IMG/VR virus record: IMGVR_UViG_3300028041_000003
Location: 1-39,713 of that record
DNA from: a virus
Direction: 5' to 3' (one strand)
DNA length: 39,713 bases
Shown here: positions 2,780 through 37,928 of the stretch, piece after piece
How the letters are laid out: each line of letters opens with the position of its first letter
How positions within the stretch are numbered: the stretch's first letter is position 1
The notes under the pieces: generated by a model
Databases searched by the model: none
Seen by the model: the letters and a program-made list of their open reading frames with translations, nothing else
Told to the model about the DNA's origin: nothing
Position numbers and translations under genes: made by a program

Positions 2780-2964
2780 ACCTCCTCGCCTTCCTCACCC
2801 GCAAGCAGCCGGAAACCCCGGAACAGCGCCTACAGTGCGCGGCAAGCGAGCTTGGGCGGCAGGGTGGCCTCGCGCGCCATGCCCGTGAGCGCGAGCCTAT
2901 CCGCGCAATGGCCCGCCAGCTTTGCGCCGAGATCGGCAAGCCTGTGCCCGAGGCGCTGCGGTGA
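2776..2964 (+). CDS. Small conserved early protein (TRKQPETPEQR family), module A copy
   Basis: The 62-residue protein begins MNLLAFLTRKQPETPEQR and continues with basic, Ala/Arg-rich sequence (GLARHAREREPIRAMARQL). Its counterpart at 37192-37356 shares TRKQPETPEQR and the REPIRAMARQL-like helix, in the same slot before the methyltransferase-like gene. It is joined to both neighbours by 4-bp overlaps. No function is known to me. A 35-bp stretch is identical at DNA level to the module B copy. Confidence 0.7.
   Translation: MNLLAFLTRKQPETPEQRLQCAASELGRQGGLARHAREREPIRAMARQLCAEIGKPVPEALR
2795..2829 (+). repeat. 35-bp perfect direct repeat, copy 1
   Basis: This 35-bp stretch is identical to 37205-37239, which lies 34,410 bp away inside the paralogous small gene. 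It encodes TRKQPETPEQR in both copies. It is long enough to be a recombination target between the two modules. Confidence 0.9.
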
Positions 2965-3572
2965 GGGTGCTTGTCGCCTGTGAGTTCAGCGGCACGGTTC
3001 GGCGGGCGTTCGCGCTGCGCGGCCATGACGCCATGTCATGCGATCTGCTGCCAACTGAGTTGTCGGGCCCGCACTACCAAGGGGATGTCCGCGACATTCT
3101 TGGCAAGTGGCAGTTTGACCTGCTCATTGCCCATCCGCCCTGCACCCATCTCGCCGTCAGCGGCGCCAGACACTTCGCAGCCAAGCAGGCAAGCGGCGTT
3201 CAGGAAGAGGCGCTTCAATTCGTCCGCGCCCTTCTGAACGCGCCAATCCCGATGATCGCGCTGGAAAACCCTATCAGCATCATCAGCTCGCGCATCCGCA
3301 AGCCCGACCAGATCATCCAGCCCTGGCAGTTCGGCCACGGTGAAACCAAGGCAACGTGCTTGTGGCTCAAGAACCTGCCCAAACTGGTGCCGACACACAG
3401 CGAAAAGCCAGACCTGTTCGCGGCCGAAGCACCCAAGGAACGTGACCCGCGCGTGTGGCGACTGCCGCCGAGCCCTGACCGCTGGAAAGAGCGCAGCCGC
3501 ACCTTCACCGGCATTGCCGAGGCCATGGCCAACCAGTGGGGCGCGCTCGACGTGCAGCAGGTGGCAGCATGA
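2961..3572 (+). CDS. DNA cytosine methyltransferase-like protein, module A copy
   Basis: The 203-residue protein starts at a GTG overlapping the previous stop (GTGA). The N-terminus VRVLVACEFSGTVRRAF resembles the SAM-binding motif I of C5-cytosine methyltransferases. HPPCTH (about 58-63) places a Pro-Cys motif where the catalytic loop would be, and ENP (102-104) sits where ENV is usual. A conserved block QPWQFGHGETKATCLWLKNL follows. It is much shorter than a typical Dcm enzyme and has no obvious target-recognition domain. This family is common in phage early regions and is usually annotated as methyltransferase without proof. The module B paralogue is at 37353. Confidence 0.7.
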   Translation: MRVLVACEFSGTVRRAFALRGHDAMSCDLLPTELSGPHYQGDVRDILGKWQFDLLIAHPPCTHLAVSGARHFAAKQASGVQEEALQFVRALLNAPIPMIALENPISIISSRIRKPDQIIQPWQFGHGETKATCLWLKNLPKLVPTHSEKPDLFAAEAPKERDPRVWRLPPSPDRWKERSRTFTGIAEAMANQWGALDVQQVAA

Positions 3573-4404: not shown

Positions 4405-4583
4405 GAACCAAGCCTATCCCCATCACGCTAGGCGTCCGAGCGACGTTTATTCCGCACAGTGGCAGGGCCAAGCTCCCCGCTGACTGGCACATGATCCGCG
4501 CCGAGAAGCCGGATCGGGCACCATGCCCACGCTGCGGGGTGCGCGGGGATGTCGGATGCAAGCACAGCAGGGGTGGGCGGTGA
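4401..4583 (+). CDS. Small zinc-knuckle protein, paralogue of 38266-38496
   Basis: 60 residues. The C-terminus carries CPRCGVRGDVGCKH, a CxxC...CxH metal-binding motif. The module B protein at 38266 has CPRCGVRRDFGCRH in the same terminal position but a different N-terminus. It overlaps the previous gene by ATGA and the HNH gene by GTGA. The zinc motif is seen directly; any function is unassigned. Confidence 0.65.
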   Translation: MRTKPIPITLGVRATFIPHSGRAKLPADWHMIRAEKPDRAPCPRCGVRGDVGCKHSRGGR

Positions 4584-5377
4584 GCAAGCGTAAACCGATC
4601 AGCAAGCGCGTCCGTTTTGAGGTGTTCAAGCGGGACAGTTTCACCTGCCAGCATTGCGGTCAGTCCGCGCCGGATGTTGTCCTGCATCTCGATCACATCA
4701 ACCCTGTGGCGGGTGGCGGCGACAATGACCTGATGAACCTCGTCACCTCCTGCGAGCCTTGCAACGCTGGCAAGGGTGCGCGGGCGCTCGACGACAACAG
4801 CGTGATTGCCAGACAAAAAGCACAGCTCGACGAACTGAATGAGCGACGCGAGCAGCTGGAAATGATGCTCCAATGGCGCGAAGCTCTCGCGGACCTTGAT
4901 GCTGAATACGCCGCTGCGCTTGAGCAACGCTTCTCCGACGAAACAGGGTCAAGTCTTACGGATGTCGGGAAGGCAAAGGTTAGGCAGTGGTTAAAGCGTT
5001 ACCCGCTGTCCGATCTGTTGAGTGCCCTAGATGACGCCCTAGGCACTTATTTCAAGGGTGGCGATCCGGAGAACGGCGAGCGCAACAATGAGTTGGCCGG
5101 CAAGGCTTTCGGGATGGTGCCCCGCATCATCAACGCGAGGAGGCGGAACGCCGACAAGCCGTGGATGAAAGACCTGTTCTACGTCCGCGCGATCGTTCGC
5201 AACCGACACTACTGCAACGAGCGCGTCGCCATCGACCTGATTGAGCAGGCTTACCACGCGGGCGCTCACATAGAAGAACTGAAGGATTGGGCGAAACGCT
5301 CACGCAGCTGGACCAACTGGCGCGACGAGATGGAAGCCTGGATCGAACATTTGGGGGAGCCAGATGAGCAGGATTAG
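4580..5377 (+). CDS. HNH endonuclease-domain protein
   Basis: 265 residues from a GTG that overlaps the previous stop (GTGA). Residues about 10-60 form a classical HNH with zinc cysteines: FKRDSFTCQHCGQ, HLDHINPVAGGGDNDLMNL, TSCEPCNAGKG. A charged helical linker follows, then a second region with KVRQWLKRYPLSDLLSALDD and a C-terminal WTNWRDEMEAWIEHL. HNH domains cut or nick DNA with a single metal. Just upstream of the replication gene, a recombination or replication role is more likely than homing. It overlaps the replication gene by 14 bp. Confidence 0.8.
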   Translation: MSKRKPISKRVRFEVFKRDSFTCQHCGQSAPDVVLHLDHINPVAGGGDNDLMNLVTSCEPCNAGKGARALDDNSVIARQKAQLDELNERREQLEMMLQWREALADLDAEYAAALEQRFSDETGSSLTDVGKAKVRQWLKRYPLSDLLSALDDALGTYFKGGDPENGERNNELAGKAFGMVPRIINARRRNADKPWMKDLFYVRAIVRNRHYCNERVAIDLIEQAYHAGAHIEELKDWAKRSRSWTNWRDEMEAWIEHLGEPDEQD

Positions 5378-15525: not shown

Positions 15526-16083
15526 ATGCCGACTTGCCGCGACATCATCACCCGCGCGCTTCGCAAGGCTCGCGTCTATGCGGCGGGAGAGGAACCATCC
15601 GCCGAGGACATGGCTGATGGGCTCGACGAGTTGCAGAACCTCTATGAGCAATGGGGTTCGGGCGGGATGTTTGGTCGTCTGTCGGACGTTCACACGAACG
15701 CCGACTATGAGGCATCGCCCGGCGAGCGAGTTGTGTTGACCGAGGACGCGACAGTCACGATCCCCGAAACCATTTATGACGACGGCTCGGATTATCCGCC
15801 CTATGACCTGTCGTTCATTGAGGTCATCGCGCCGGACAGCGTAACCCGTTACCTCTATTCGGGCGGCCGCTGGGTTGAGATCGGCGCGCTCGGACTGGAT
15901 GACGAGGCGCCCCTTGCCAACCGAGGCCGGGGTGGCCTCGCGGCGTGCCTGGCGCTGGCCTATGCCGAGGAGTTCGGAGCCGAGGTCGGGCCGGGCGTTG
16001 CGCGCCAGGCGGCGGCATTCAAGACGGCCCTGTCGCTCAAGATGGGGTCGGATGCGGCCCGCACGGCGCCGGATTATTTCTGA
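15526..16083 (+). CDS. Tail accessory factor, P22 gp4-like (head completion)
   Basis: 185 residues. The N-terminus CRDIITRALRKARVYAAGEEPSAEDMADGLDELQNLYEQWGSGG is the characteristic start of gp4-like packaged-DNA stabilisation/tail accessory proteins, with ANRGRGGLAACLALAYAEEFG later. In P22, gp4 binds the portal ring and bridges it to gp10. Here it is separated from the gp10-like gene by an inserted antisense endonuclease gene. Confidence 0.8.
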   Translation: MPTCRDIITRALRKARVYAAGEEPSAEDMADGLDELQNLYEQWGSGGMFGRLSDVHTNADYEASPGERVVLTEDATVTIPETIYDDGSDYPPYDLSFIEVIAPDSVTRYLYSGGRWVEIGALGLDDEAPLANRGRGGLAACLALAYAEEFGAEVGPGVARQAAAFKTALSLKMGSDAARTAPDYF

Positions 16084-16694
16084 CGGTCACAGGGGCGTGT
16101 AGGAGTATCCATTGCGGCCTCTAGCGACCATTTAAGCTTGGTTAGCCGTTGGCGAACATTTCTTGGCTCTTTCCCAAACCTCTCACACAGTTCTGCGATT
16201 GAACCCGTCACGCCTCTGTAGGTCCACTGTTTAATTCTACGCTGGTTCCGCGCTTGTTGCTTAGCGTCGGCCCAGATGCAGTTCTGCGGGCTGTATTCCT
16301 TGTCGTTATCCAGACGTTCTATGGAGTGCCCGGCGGGGCGGTTGCCCATGTCGGCAAGAAACCTTCTGAATCCACCGTCGCCCGTCCAGCGAGCACAAAC
16401 AGTGATCCCTCGCCCGCCGTATCTTGGGTAGTCTCGGCGGCGCTTGTCGCCGCAGCGGCGGTGCATGGATGCCCAGATGAAATATTCCGGGTGATCAATG
16501 TCTCGATCGGCCTTGCGATAGCGCGTTTCTGCAAATCGGCACCCGCAACTGATCGTTCTACCGTGAACAAGGTCCGGTGGTCGCACCAGCTTCTCATTGC
16601 CGCAATCGCACCGGCAGCGCACCGCCCGTCCGACCTTCTCGGGCAGCACAGTTAGATACCTGTATCGGGACTTTAGCGGGAGGGCTTTGGCCAT
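16074..16694 (-). CDS. Antisense HNH/AP2-type homing endonuclease-like protein
   Basis: 206 residues on the strand opposite all surrounding virion genes. The N-terminus has a zinc-type CRCDCGNEKLVR..HGRTISCGC. The centre has YPRYGGRGITVCARW, FRRFLADMGNRPAGHSIERLDNDKEYSPQNCIWA, the signature of phage HNH endonucleases with DNA-binding extensions. The C-terminus is NUMOD-like (YRGVTGSIAELCERFGKEPRNVRQRL). The frame overlaps the gp4-like gene by 10 bp, and local GC is lower. It looks like a free-standing homing gene inserted between gp4-like and gp10-like genes. Confidence 0.85.
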   Translation of the reverse strand: MAKALPLKSRYRYLTVLPEKVGRAVRCRCDCGNEKLVRPPDLVHGRTISCGCRFAETRYRKADRDIDHPEYFIWASMHRRCGDKRRRDYPRYGGRGITVCARWTGDGGFRRFLADMGNRPAGHSIERLDNDKEYSPQNCIWADAKQQARNQRRIKQWTYRGVTGSIAELCERFGKEPRNVRQRLTKLKWSLEAAMDTPTRPCDRQK

Positions 16695-30631: not shown

Positions 30632-30681
30632 CAGTCGGTCTCCCGCTCAGCAAGCGCCAGCAGCTCGTCATGGTCAGCCAT
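30631..30681 (-). CDS. 16-residue ORF, possible duplication remnant
   Basis: MADHDELLALAERETD resembles the first residues of the next upstream gene (ELLALAER). It joins neighbours through short overlaps. Could be a truncated copy retained as a coupling ORF. Confidence 0.35.
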   Translation of the reverse strand: MADHDELLALAERETD

Positions 30682-30982
30682 TGCTCTGCTCCTGTGCTTG
30701 GGCGCGGAGCGCGGCGATCACGCGCTCCCATGCCTTTTGCGTCCCTGCGTTCGGCCAGTAGCGCCAGCCACGCGGCGCTTGCTCGGGCTTAATCCCGTTG
30801 AAGGCACAAAGGGCGATCAGCCCTTCCTCGCTTCGGGGGAAGTGGAGTGCCCCAACGTCAAAGCCAGCATCCCGCACCGCCAGCATCTCGCCAGCAACAT
30901 AAGCGATTTCGCCAAACGCCCGCTCAGCAAGCGCCAGCAGCTCGGCTTCATTGTCCTGGGTCATGGGTTCCAAAGTTTTCAC
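30674..30982 (-). CDS. Hypothetical accessory protein
   Basis: 102 residues. I prefer GTG (complement of 30980-30982), eight bases after AGAAGGA, over ATG 30964. Contains ELLALAERAFGEIAYVAGEMLA and ending WYWPNAGTQKAWERVIAALRAQAQEQSNG-like residues. The start codon lies inside an AGTTTTCACG repeat. Unassigned. Confidence 0.6.
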   Translation of the reverse strand: MKTLEPMTQDNEAELLALAERAFGEIAYVAGEMLAVRDAGFDVGALHFPRSEEGLIALCAFNGIKPEQAPRGWRYWPNAGTQKAWERVIAALRAQAQEQSNG

Positions 30983-30983
30983 G
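30974..30983 (+). repeat. AGTTTTCACG repeat, copy 1
   Basis: Ten-bp motif, same orientation as copies at 31509-31518 and 31649-31658. It overlaps the GTG start of the 30674 gene. Confidence 0.6.
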
Positions 30984-30995
30984 CTGCAATTCCTT

Positions 30996-31565
30996 CTAAG
31001 GGTGCGTTGCCCACGGCTTCTTGCCGTGGCGGGCGTCGTCAATCGCCTGGGCCAAGCGGGGCGTCCATTTATACCACTCGCCTCTGATGAGGTCGGCAGC
31101 GAACATAGCGTGCCAGCGATCCTCTTCATGGCCGCGCCCCGTCAGACTGCAAAGGCAGTCCACGGGATCGGGGTTGTTCGTCTGCATATTGACCATGCGG
31201 ACCACAACATCGCGAGCGCGGCCTATCTTCACAGCGTTTCCGCACCTGGCGAAGTAGAGGTAGTCGCCTTGCGCGTCGCCCACGACTACCTCGCTGCGGG
31301 GCGTGAACCTTGGCGGGATGCGCTGCCAGCGTTCTAGGGTAGCCGCCGCTACCGCCGCCGCAAACTCAGGATCACCTAAGTGTGGCAGGCGCAAAAGCTC
31401 GGTCTTGCCGTTGTCATCCTTTAGCCCGCTGTCGAAGTAATAGTAGGTTCGGCCCTTCGCTTTTTTCATCCGAACATGGGCGGGCAGAGACCCATCGGGG
31501 ACCGCCCGAGTTTTCACGGCCCCTGCTAAGTATTTGTTCTGATTAAAGGAGTTTCCAGGTCGCAT
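30996..31565 (-). CDS. Chimera: integrase-type N-terminal domain fused to GIY-YIG-like (T5orf172/Mug113-type) domain
   Basis: 189 residues. Residues 36-74 (AKGRTYYYFDSGLKD..LLRLPH..D..F) align with residues 12-50 of the adjacent integrase (AKGREYFYFDTGLKD..LTKLPH..D..F), its putative arm-site DNA-binding domain. Residues 100-165 (DYLYFARCGNAVKIGRARD, MQTNNP, GHEEDRWHAMF, GEWYKW) match the T5orf172/Mug113 GIY-YIG superfamily: YLY for GIY, KIG for YIG, with Arg122 and Glu147 as likely catalytic residues. ATG 31565 has AAGGA ahead; GTG 31517 (VKTR) is the alternative. A nicking or structure-specific nuclease targeted to integrase arm sites is inference. Confidence 0.7.
   Translation of the reverse strand: MRPGNSFNQNKYLAGAVKTRAVPDGSLPAHVRMKKAKGRTYYYFDSGLKDDNGKTELLRLPHLGDPEFAAAVAAATLERWQRIPPRFTPRSEVVVGDAQGDYLYFARCGNAVKIGRARDVVVRMVNMQTNNPDPVDCLCSLTGRGHEEDRWHAMFAADLIRGEWYKWTPRLAQAIDDARHGKKPWATHP
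31506..31518 (+). repeat. CCGAGTTTTCACG repeat, copy 2
   Basis: Thirteen-bp repeat inside the 5' part of the GIY-YIG-like gene, identical to 31646-31658, 140 bp away. Confidence 0.65.
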
Positions 31566-31645
31566 TTCGGCTAAGTCCTTGAAATGTAACGAAGGGAAGC
31601 TAACGGCGCGATAACATCGGCCCGCGCAAATGCGTCATTTTGCAG

Positions 31646-31658
31646 CCGAGTTTTCACG
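31646..31658 (+). repeat. CCGAGTTTTCACG repeat, copy 3
   Basis: Thirteen-bp repeat spanning the integrase stop codon. With copies 1 and 2 it forms a same-orientation set around the 3' end of the integrase, where arm-type integrase sites and attP are often found. Binding is inferred. Confidence 0.6.
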
Positions 31659-32712
31659 AGTTTGCACGTTCGCGTTTCGTCCGCGCCTTCCTTGCCTCAT
31701 CCAATTTGACGATCGCAGCGCGGCCAATCTGCCGCTGATCGCGCCCGCGGCCGTAATGCTCCACCATCTGCATCGAGTGCGCGGTGATGGCTGAAACCTC
31801 GGCTGGTGTGCACTGGGCCTCCAGCAAGGCTATCACGGCGTTCTTGCGGAGGCCGTGCGGCACCACATGATGGCCACGTGCCTTAGCCCATGCCTGGAGC
31901 CGCTGGCGAACCGCCGACTCGGTAGTGGGCTTGCCTTGCGGGTTGACGAGGATCGTGGTCGCCGGTCGCGGCGCCTCAGCGACAATCTCGGCAAGCTCGG
32001 CAGCCATGCTGATCCACAGCCTGGTCTTCGTCTTTTGCGCGAACACGCGGATGCCCCCCGGTTCGACGTCGTTCCAGCGCATCCTCACTACATCGCCGAT
32101 TCGCTGCCCCGTGAAGTAGAGCAGCGCGACCGGCAGCCTGACTTCCTGGTCGGCTAGCGCTTCCTCGAGCAGATCAAGCGGCCACGGCGGGTGAGGTTCG
32201 GACTTGAACAGCCGTATTTTCGCGGCCGGGTTGCCTGGTGCAAAGCCATGCTCGGGAAGCGATGCCCAGGCGTAGAGGGCACCCAACGCCCGCACCGTCT
32301 GGTTAGCCGCGCCCCGCCTGTCCGCCAGCTTGTCGCGGAGCTGGACGACATGGGAGGGTGTAACCGCCGCGGCTGGCGGGCTGCCGCCCTCGCGCGAGCG
32401 GATCAGCCGGTTGGCTACGGCCAGATAGCGGCTGTAGCTGCGCTGGCTGCTTTCCTCCAGGTCAGCGAACTCGGGCGATAGCTCATACTTGCGGATCAGA
32501 TCATCCAGGGAGAGCAAGCCTTGGGCCTTGGCGTTGGCGCGGTTCGTGCGAGCGGCGAGGGCGCGGGCATAGGCGCCGCCGAACGCCAGGTCGCGCTTGT
32601 GTGGCAGCTTCGTGAGGATCGGCTGCCCGCGCTCATCCTTCAGGCCAGTGTCGAAGTAGAAATACTCCCGGCCCTTGGCAACTTTGCGGCGAAGGTAGCG
32701 CAGATCGCTCAT
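31654..32712 (-). CDS. int: Tyrosine-recombinase phage integrase
   Basis: 352 residues from ATG 32712 in an ATGA overlap with the excisionase-like gene. N-terminal arm-type domain (RYLRRKVAKGREYFYFDTGLKD), SAM-like core-binding domain (about 72-150), then catalytic residues Arg204 (TGQRIGDVV), Lys about 227, His286 and Arg289 (HGLRKN), His312 (AHSMQ) and nucleophile Tyr320 (VEHYGRG). It integrates and excises the prophage. A full set of catalytic residues suggests activity. No core att sequence was identified. Confidence 0.93.
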   Translation of the reverse strand: MSDLRYLRRKVAKGREYFYFDTGLKDERGQPILTKLPHKRDLAFGGAYARALAARTNRANAKAQGLLSLDDLIRKYELSPEFADLEESSQRSYSRYLAVANRLIRSREGGSPPAAAVTPSHVVQLRDKLADRRGAANQTVRALGALYAWASLPEHGFAPGNPAAKIRLFKSEPHPPWPLDLLEEALADQEVRLPVALLYFTGQRIGDVVRMRWNDVEPGGIRVFAQKTKTRLWISMAAELAEIVAEAPRPATTILVNPQGKPTTESAVRQRLQAWAKARGHHVVPHGLRKNAVIALLEAQCTPAEVSAITAHSMQMVEHYGRGRDQRQIGRAAIVKLDEARKARTKRERANS

Positions 32713-32936
32713 GCGGCATCCCCTATCACGATTCCGCCTTCGTCCAGAACCTCGCCAGCCATGATGAGCAGCGCCTTGTCGAGCTGTGCCCGGCACCAAC
32801 GCTCGGAGCGGCCCAACTGGATCGGCGCGGGCAGGCGGCCGGATGCAACCTCCCGCAAGAACTCGGCGTCGGACAAGTCGCAGTAGCGCGCCGCCGTCGC
32901 CCTACGCATGGCAGCGGGGGGATAGGTGGCAGTCAT
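32709..32936 (-). CDS. Excisionase-like (AlpA/MerR-type HTH) protein
   Basis: 75 residues. ATAARYCDLSDAEFLREVAS, then GRLPAPIQLGRSERWCRAQLDKAL is the winged-helix signature of AlpA/excisionase proteins. Position directly ahead of the integrase on the same transcript suggests it directs excision. ATG 32936 opens the domain; the upstream extension is shadow. Confidence 0.8.
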   Translation of the reverse strand: MTATYPPAAMRRATAARYCDLSDAEFLREVASGRLPAPIQLGRSERWCRAQLDKALLIMAGEVLDEGGIVIGDAA

Positions 32937-34863: not shown

Positions 34864-35123
34864 GACAGCAGCCCCAGCGCCCAAGCAATGCCAAGCCACG
34901 CGAGCGCAGCACCGGCACCAATGATGAGCCAGACGCCCTCCCAGCCGCCGCATTCGCGCTCATCGCGCTCCTGACGCAGCGCCTCTTCGATCTCGTCCCA
35001 CATGGAGGCGTAGTCGGTGTCATCATCGACCCTGGGCGCCTCGGCAGCGATTGCGCCGTAGTCGCCAGTGAGCTTCGCAAGCTCCTCGGGGATGATGAAC
35101 GGGCGGTGGGTGACGGGGCGCAT
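34860..35123 (-). CDS. Small protein with C-terminal membrane helix
   Basis: 87 residues from ATG 35123 in a TAATG overlap with the HNH gene. Acidic helical body (EELAKLTGDYGAIAAEAPRV...MWDEIEEALRQERDE), then VWLIIGAGAALAWLGIAWAL, a tail anchor. Function unknown. Confidence 0.6.
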   Translation of the reverse strand: MRPVTHRPFIIPEELAKLTGDYGAIAAEAPRVDDDTDYASMWDEIEEALRQERDERECGGWEGVWLIIGAGAALAWLGIAWALGLLS

Positions 35124-35557
35124 TAGTCGACCTTTCGCTGAAGGCGGTTTGCTCGGTAGTTCAGCTTGCATTGGCGGCACTGGCGGCGACCGTCCGCTCG
35201 GGGCACGGCGTTGGTCCCGCTAAGCTCGTGGCCGCGGGGGCAGTGCGTCTTGCGGCTGTTCATGTGCCGGCGCTTCCGCACCATATCCTGCGCGTTGTCG
35301 CGTAGCGTTCCCGGCCAAAGGTGGGCGGGGTTCACGCAGTTGGGATTGTCGCAGGAATGGCAGACGCAAGCTGCGGACAGGGGTTTTCCCGCTGCGAGTT
35401 CCCAAGCAACCCGGTGGGCACGGCGAACCTTGCCGCCGAGCATGAAGCGCCCGTATCCTCGCTCGCTGATTGAACCTAGCCAGGGCCAGCACTCGTCTGG
35501 CGACCGCTGATCGACTTTCGACCAGAACCGATCTTCAAGGGGGGCGGCGCTTGCCAT
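35123..35557 (-). CDS. HNH endonuclease (HNH_3 type)
   Basis: 144 residues. FWSKVDQRSPDECWPWLGSI, then GYGRFMLGGKVRRAHRVAWE, CVCHSCDNPNCVNPAHLWPG and TLRDNAQDMVRKRRH give the HNH_3 active site. The C-terminal CPRGHELSG..RQCRQCK zinc motif is usual in this family. It uses the 28-bp version of the leader repeat as ribosome-binding region. As the second gene of the leftward operon it is transcribed early. Confidence 0.85.
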   Translation of the reverse strand: MASAAPLEDRFWSKVDQRSPDECWPWLGSISERGYGRFMLGGKVRRAHRVAWELAAGKPLSAACVCHSCDNPNCVNPAHLWPGTLRDNAQDMVRKRRHMNSRKTHCPRGHELSGTNAVPRADGRRQCRQCKLNYRANRLQRKVD

Positions 35558-37195: not shown

Positions 37196-37356
37196 TCCGC
37201 TGGTTCACCCGCAAGCAGCCGGAAACCCCGGAACAGCGCAACCCCGCGCGTGAGCTGGCACTGATCGGCGTTCGTCAGCATCGCGAGCGCGTCAAGGCAA
37301 TGGCTCGCCTGATGCGCGAACAATGCGACCTGCCGCCTGATCCGAGGCTGGCGTGA
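37192..37356 (+). CDS. Small conserved early protein, module B copy
   Basis: 54 residues (MIRWFTRKQPETPEQRNPAR, then helical REELALIGVRQH-like and RVKAMARLMREQ). Shares TRKQPETPEQR with 2776-2964 and the same overlaps to its neighbours. Unassigned. Confidence 0.7.
   Translation: MIRWFTRKQPETPEQRNPARELALIGVRQHRERVKAMARLMREQCDLPPDPRLA
37205..37239 (+). repeat. 35-bp perfect direct repeat, copy 2
   Basis: Identical to 2795-2829. The two copies mark equivalent positions of the two early modules. Confidence 0.9.
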
Positions 37357-37928
37357 AGGTGCTCGTGGCCTGCGAGTTCAGCGGCACCGTGCGCGATGCG
37401 TTCATTCGCCGCGGCCACGACGCCATGAGCTGCGACCTCCTGCCCACTGAGGCGCCGGGACCGCACTACCAAGGCGATGTGCGCGATGTGCTGCACTTCC
37501 CCTGGGATTTGATGGTGGCGCATCCCCCATGCACCCATCTCAGCGTTTCGGGCGCAAAGCACTTTGCGGACAAGCGCCTCGACGGGCGCCAGCAGGTAGC
37601 AGCGAGCTTCTTCATGGAGCTTGCCCGCGCACCCATCGCGCGCATCGCCATCGAGAACCCGGTTTGCATCATGTCGAGTCTCTGGCGCAAGCCGGATCAG
37701 ACGGTGCAACCCTGGCAGTTCGGGCACGGTGAAACCAAGGCAACCTGCCTCTGGCTAAAGAACCTGCCGGCGCTCCAGCCCACCAACATCGTCGAGGGAC
37801 GCGAGCAGCGGGTTTTTCGTATGCCGCCGAGCGCCGATCGGTGGAAGGAACGGTCAAAGACCTTCGACGGCATTGCCGAGGCGATGGCCGCCCAATGGGG
37901 TGACCTCCTGATTGCGGAGGCAGCATGA
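37353..37928 (+). CDS. DNA cytosine methyltransferase-like protein, module B copy
   Basis: 191 residues from GTG 37353 (GTGA overlap). Motif-I-like VLVACEFSGTVRDAF, HPPCTH (57-62) and IENPVCIMSS, then QPWQFGHGETKATCLWLKNL and RMPPSADRWKERSKTF. Clearly homologous to the 2961 protein, with patches of DNA-level identity. Short for a functional methyltransferase; activity is unproven. Confidence 0.7.
   Translation: MKVLVACEFSGTVRDAFIRRGHDAMSCDLLPTEAPGPHYQGDVRDVLHFPWDLMVAHPPCTHLSVSGAKHFADKRLDGRQQVAASFFMELARAPIARIAIENPVCIMSSLWRKPDQTVQPWQFGHGETKATCLWLKNLPALQPTNIVEGREQRVFRMPPSADRWKERSKTFDGIAEAMAAQWGDLLIAEAA

Follow-up and report, generated by a model that had tools for sequence, protein, structure and literature searches.

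Odn (gp88), encoded by the Vibrio phage ICP1, is a nuclease in which a RepA-like domain is joined to a T5orf172 domain, and it cuts the replication origins of the PLE satellite (PMC8263062). The principle of combining a borrowed DNA-binding domain with a T5orf172 nuclease is already known from this enzyme. In the available part of a survey of T5orf172/MUG113 genes, 200 of 229 are described with CapR, DUF723 or DUF4397 zinc fingers and some with RepA_N, and that part makes no mention of integrase N-terminal domains (PMC10448857). A different form of phage interference is represented by BstA, a prophage-encoded protein whose locus contains aba, a short DNA element that bears repeats and overlaps the start of the gene (PMC8585504).

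The window analyzed here, a 39.7 kb stretch comprising an entire IMG/VR virus record, encodes a 189-amino-acid protein (30996..31565, minus strand) with an integrase-type N-terminal domain followed by a MUG113/T5orf172 GIY-YIG nuclease domain. As in Odn, whose DNA-binding domain resembles the iteron-recognizing RepA of PLE, a GIY-YIG nuclease of the T5orf172 superfamily in a phage is joined to a borrowed, presumably repeat-recognizing domain, but here this domain is of the tyrosine integrase type and resembles that of the adjacent integrase of the same phage, and the presumed target is attP rather than a satellite origin (PMC8263062). It is likewise a free-standing phage gene of the same nuclease family as the T5orf172/MUG113 homing endonuclease genes, with their variable, shuffled DNA-binding modules, but unlike those described in the available part of the survey it is positioned at the int/attP region of a temperate phage (PMC10448857). 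HNH-AP2 homing endonucleases also combine a nuclease with an AP2-type domain, although the nuclease belongs to another class and the domain order differs. A sequence-only reading of this locus had suggested that the architecture may be undescribed, and the literature searched contained no description of it. As judged from the sequences, the fusion of an integrase N-terminal domain with MUG113 is a real and recurrent architecture.

The fusion gene and the neighboring integrase

The tyrosine integrase (31654..32712, minus strand; 352 amino acids from the ATG at 32712) is matched by PF00589 with an E-value of 7e-15, and inspection of its sequence identifies the motif residues Arg204, His286/Arg289 and Tyr320. 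Among phage integrases, the one from the Pseudanabaena phage Pam1 is closest, with 40% sequence identity, and many of the phage and plasmid matches come from alphaproteobacteria. The start of the integrase gene is overlapped by a 75-amino-acid open reading frame (32712..32936, minus strand), which has no Pfam match and is excisionase-like by position alone.

The fusion gene adjoins the integrase, as the sequence-only reading had it: both are on the same strand, with the integrase first, and 88 bp separate the integrase stop codon from the fusion ATG. A plausible ribosome-binding sequence, AAGGA, is located 10 nt upstream of this ATG, and the codon-position GC content of 63/48/71% is comparable to that of the adjacent genes. 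The protein lacks the tyrosine recombinase catalytic domain (R-H-R-Y), and PF00589 matches only the neighboring gene. We rejected the idea of a broken or truncated integrase, because a conserved MUG113 domain makes up the C-terminal half and the reading frame is open, with codon positions like those of a gene. No close relative turned up when genome and viral contigs were scanned with single sequences, and therefore no sister phage devoid of the gene is available for comparison; sister phages carrying it were not found in these contigs either.

Other features of the window include two more nuclease-like open reading frames, HNH-like by eye (16074-16694 and 35123-35557), and two paralogous ones of a single family (VLVACEFSGTVR..F..RGHDAMSCDLLPTE) near both ends of the record (2922-3572 and 37353-37928). 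An exact 26-bp direct repeat, CCCGCTCAGCAAGCGCCAGCAGCTCG, is present downstream of the fusion gene at 30642-30667 and 30919-30944.

The integrase-type N-terminal domain

Residues 30–82 of the fusion (31320..31478, minus strand) align without gaps to residues 6–58 of the integrase (32539..32697, minus strand) with 26 of 53 residues identical (49%) and an E-value of 1e-12 in a two-sequence BLASTP comparison, so that the repetition of the integrase N-terminal domain originally noticed in the leftward frame holds. The DNA coding for the two domains is identical at 87 of 159 positions, and therefore the domain is not the product of a fresh duplication. The same 65 fusion residues also match the N-termini of many independent integrases, among them those of phage Pam1 (5e-7) and of a Novosphingobium plasmid (1e-5), which places the similarity above chance. 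A profile HMM built from 16 integrase N-terminal domains, with the fusion excluded, recovers the fusion at an E-value of 9.5e-13 among 13,468 open reading frames, where all the higher-ranking matches are integrases. The N-terminal half searched separately matched no Pfam family, and its similarity runs directly to integrases. The PADLOC “homing endonuclease” model also gives a short match to residues 30–51 (E 2e-4).

The AlphaFold model of the fusion, with a mean pLDDT of 83, contains strands at residues 31–36, 39–49 and 55–60 and a helix at 68–82. This intact β-β-β-α topology is the one known from the arm-binding, AP2-like domains of integrases; Foldseek found no significant solved structure in the PDB for either domain of the fusion. 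Both the sequence and the predicted topology liken the domain to the arm-binding N-terminal domains of tyrosine integrases, although in the fusion no core-binding or catalytic domain follows. It is a homolog of the tyrosine integrase N-terminal domain and is predicted to bind arm-type sites.

The MUG113 nuclease domain

The Pfam profile MUG113 (PF13455) matches residues 112–174 of the fusion (31044..31232, minus strand) with 23.4 bits, barely above its cut-off of 22.3, and a scan restricted to the C-terminal half raises this to 25.4 bits; the T5orf172 profile yields 13.7–15.8 bits, under its cut-off of 20. The alignment with other MUG113 proteins shows that Tyr104, the KIG motif (113–115, with Lys113 and Gly115), Arg123, Glu148, His152 and the GEW motif (162–164) are shared and invariant. 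In the AlphaFold model, a separate α/β domain of predicted GIY-YIG-like fold follows the N-terminal domain (residues 102–187; 31005-31262, minus strand). Structural matches in BFVD, a collection of viral predictions, are MUG113/T5orf172/GIY-YIG proteins with E-values down to 1e-7, and two PHROG families of unknown function, 8130 and 8604, match the fusion as well. The profile, the motif residues and the predicted fold together assign the C-terminal half to the MUG113/T5orf172 GIY-YIG superfamily as a predicted nuclease. The proposal that such a domain had replaced the catalytic part of an integrase is thus borne out, as both halves find the partners expected of them, albeit with a Pfam score barely over the cut-off for the nuclease.

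Fusions in other phages

Among approximately 100 MUG113 open reading frames sampled from scans of IMG/VR with MUG113 alignments, two further proteins with tyrosine-recombinase-type N-terminal domains were found, in records L079 and L066. In L079 (3746-4294), the N-terminal domain matches only integrases in the phage collection, and the N-terminal domain of the L079 integrase in turn retrieves this fusion from all the sampled MUG113 frames at an E-value of 6e-10. In L066, residues 56–121 share 54–57% identity (E 2.4e-19) with the N-terminus of a Rhodoplanes plasmid protein that resembles tyrosine recombinases. Only sequence motifs identify this plasmid protein, and its relative in L075, as recombinases, since the plasmid protein matches no Pfam or PHROG profile. 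The L066 frame runs out of a sequence resembling a tRNA 3′ end, at the border with bacterial DNA, which would fit an attachment site.

The three N-terminal domains represent three integrase types. In a small tree, which has few sequences and long branches, the fusion of the window falls in a clade of four that includes its own integrase, and that of L079 is sister to its own integrase with support of 98/94. Of the integrase N-terminal domains sampled, the one nearest to the fusion belongs in both phages to the phage's own integrase. A hybrid of this kind has been formed independently in at least two other phages, which suggests a class of attachment-site-directed nucleases.

An Odn-like weapon without homing, directed at a distinct competitor (a satellite or another prophage) with a similar integrase arm domain, is unlikely to explain these proteins. 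Apart from the precedent of Odn itself, such a role would fit the divergence of the N-terminal domain, since at 49% identity the specificity of the fusion may differ from that of the integrase, and it would fit the L066 phage, whose fusion may have a foreign target because no full-length integrase with a matching N-terminal domain was detected there. However, the analysis turned up no candidate for such a competitor with matching arms, and the N-terminal domain is nearest to that of the phage's own integrase in both the window and L079; this proximity favors att sites of the phage's own type as the putative target over those of an unrelated competitor.

Several other MUG113 genes were encountered in the sample. 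L079 contains a second one past the fusion (4452-4853), and four GTCCCACT repeats are distributed over the end of the fusion gene and the interval that separates the pair. The MUG113 nuclease encoded at 3824-4237 of L080, upstream of the integrase and about where an excisionase usually sits, has an HTH_17 domain of the excisionase type (E 5e-5, just below the cut-off). The nucleases of L064 (4584-5249) and L065 (4461-5246) have N-terminal homing-endonuclease-associated repeats (HNH_repeat). A candidate fusion of a serine resolvase with MUG113 in L060 was not supported, as PF00239 is absent.

MUG113 genes beside integrases

The count of co-occurrence with tyrosine integrases covered 30 integrase-bearing viral records, the window itself excluded. 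In 12 of them, no more than 1.5 kb separates a MUG113 gene from a PF00589 gene, compared to 2.3 expected, and in nine the MUG113 gene is directly downstream of int on the same strand, compared to 0.5 expected. Neither count was attained in any of 20,000 random placements. For comparison, unrelated HNH genes are found within 1.5 kb of int in one of 13 records, a subset of the same set. The MUG113 genes adjoining int mostly have unrelated N-terminal regions with no integrase domain.

This abundance of MUG113 genes beside int, with many unrelated N-terminal regions, could mean that the fusion is a passive accessory gene, in which an int-adjacent MUG113 nuclease captured the N-terminal domain of the integrase beside it by chance recombination and gained a general affinity for DNA with no role at att. 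Phage and prophage ends near attP are general hot spots of accessory genes, which agrees with this explanation and counts against an attP-directed nuclease. We nevertheless regard passive capture as quite improbable: the three fusions carry three types of integrase N-terminal domain, the β-β-β-α fold is intact in the predicted structure, and arm-like repeats are found at the fusion gene.

Candidate arm-type sites and the presumed attP region

The 10-bp sequence AGTTTTCACG occurs at 30974, 31509 and 31649 and its variant AGTTTGCACG at 31659, all on one strand, and these are the sole matches with at most one mismatch in the 39.7 kb. The tandem pair (31649..31668) has a 10-bp spacing and overlaps the integrase stop codon, a further copy (31509..31518) is contained in codons 1–20 of the fusion gene, and the last (30974..30983) is placed directly past its stop codon. 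Only two of 2000 shuffles of this region contained any 10-mer three times. An exact 10-bp tandem at the 3′ end of an integrase gene resembles the P′ arm of phage lambda, and the clustered direct repeats look like arm-type sites, of which they are candidates.

The closest relative of the nuclease domain, with 44% identity, is a MUG113 protein of L052, which has no fused N-terminal domain. There, the integrase is followed by a tandem of CGAATCACT at its 3′ end, a tRNA-like core and, in the opening part of the MUG113 frame, one more copy of CGAATCACT; the contig may span the junction of a prophage with its host. The repeats of L052 and L079 are likewise unlikely by chance (six and 14 of 2000 shuffles, respectively). 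L054, L056 and L092 gave no clear sign of the pattern, which is therefore not general to all int-adjacent MUG113 genes. The attP site is usually located downstream of int, and following the arrangement in L052 its core is presumed to be in the gap between the integrase and the fusion (31566..31648), which contains an imperfect inverted repeat, GCAAATGCGTCATTTTGC, in its integrase-side part. Neither attB nor a tRNA core was found for the window.

Candidate sites both upstream of and within the fusion gene could serve a regulator of the phage's own attP, which would compete with the integrase for the arm sites or repress transcription of the attP region, setting the balance among integration, excision and int expression, with the nuclease secondary or inactive. 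The homing endonuclease I-TevI also serves as a repressor. In two of the three fusions, the N-terminal domain has its nearest counterpart in the integrase of the phage itself, and in L080 an excisionase-like HTH is also joined to MUG113 just upstream of int. On the other hand, loss of catalysis is not indicated, because Tyr104, KIG, Arg123, Glu148 and GEW are all retained, and most int-neighboring MUG113 proteins have unrelated N-terminal regions. We consider regulation as the main function rather unlikely.

Proposed function and implications

With a confidence somewhat short of even, we propose that the fusion is an attP-directed endonuclease of the homing or exclusion type, acting against the attP of related phages. 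Its N-terminal domain would bind the arm-type repeats of the integrase in attP (the AGTTTTCACG family), and the GIY-YIG domain would nick or cut the DNA near the bound repeats. The homology and fold class of the N-terminal domain, the MUG113 domain, the parallel in L052, the recurrence of the fusion and the precedent of Odn speak for this proposal, and the clustered repeats and the tendency of MUG113 genes to occupy the int/attP position support it indirectly. The sequence-only reading, too, had pictured a nuclease sent to integrase arm or att DNA. The target would be attP in those incoming or co-infecting relatives that share the arm sites and do not have the gene, so that their integration would be blocked, the gene would be copied into their attP by repair, or both. 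Recognition of its own attP risks self-cutting, which speaks against such a nuclease. With the fusion gene sitting among the candidate repeats, the target in this phage would be altered or split. BstA belongs to a different protein family, and the logic that the repeat at 31509 would share with BstA/aba is an analogy only (PMC8585504).

It is also possible, though we hold this broader view less firmly, that temperate phages repeatedly take a DNA-binding domain from the machinery of their own integration, join it to MUG113/GIY-YIG and maintain the resulting gene at attP, where it would serve homing or superinfection exclusion when phages compete for the same attachment sites; this would involve the integrase N-terminal domain in three lineages and perhaps the excisionase-type HTH in L080. 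The attP-directed endonuclease predicts that the fusion and the integrase bind identical 10-bp repeats. The characterized case found, Odn, aims at a satellite replication origin. If the proposal is true, the targets of chimeric T5orf172-type nucleases would include the attachment site, which is more contested than any other DNA of a temperate phage, and this would help to account for the clustering of these nuclease genes beside integrases.
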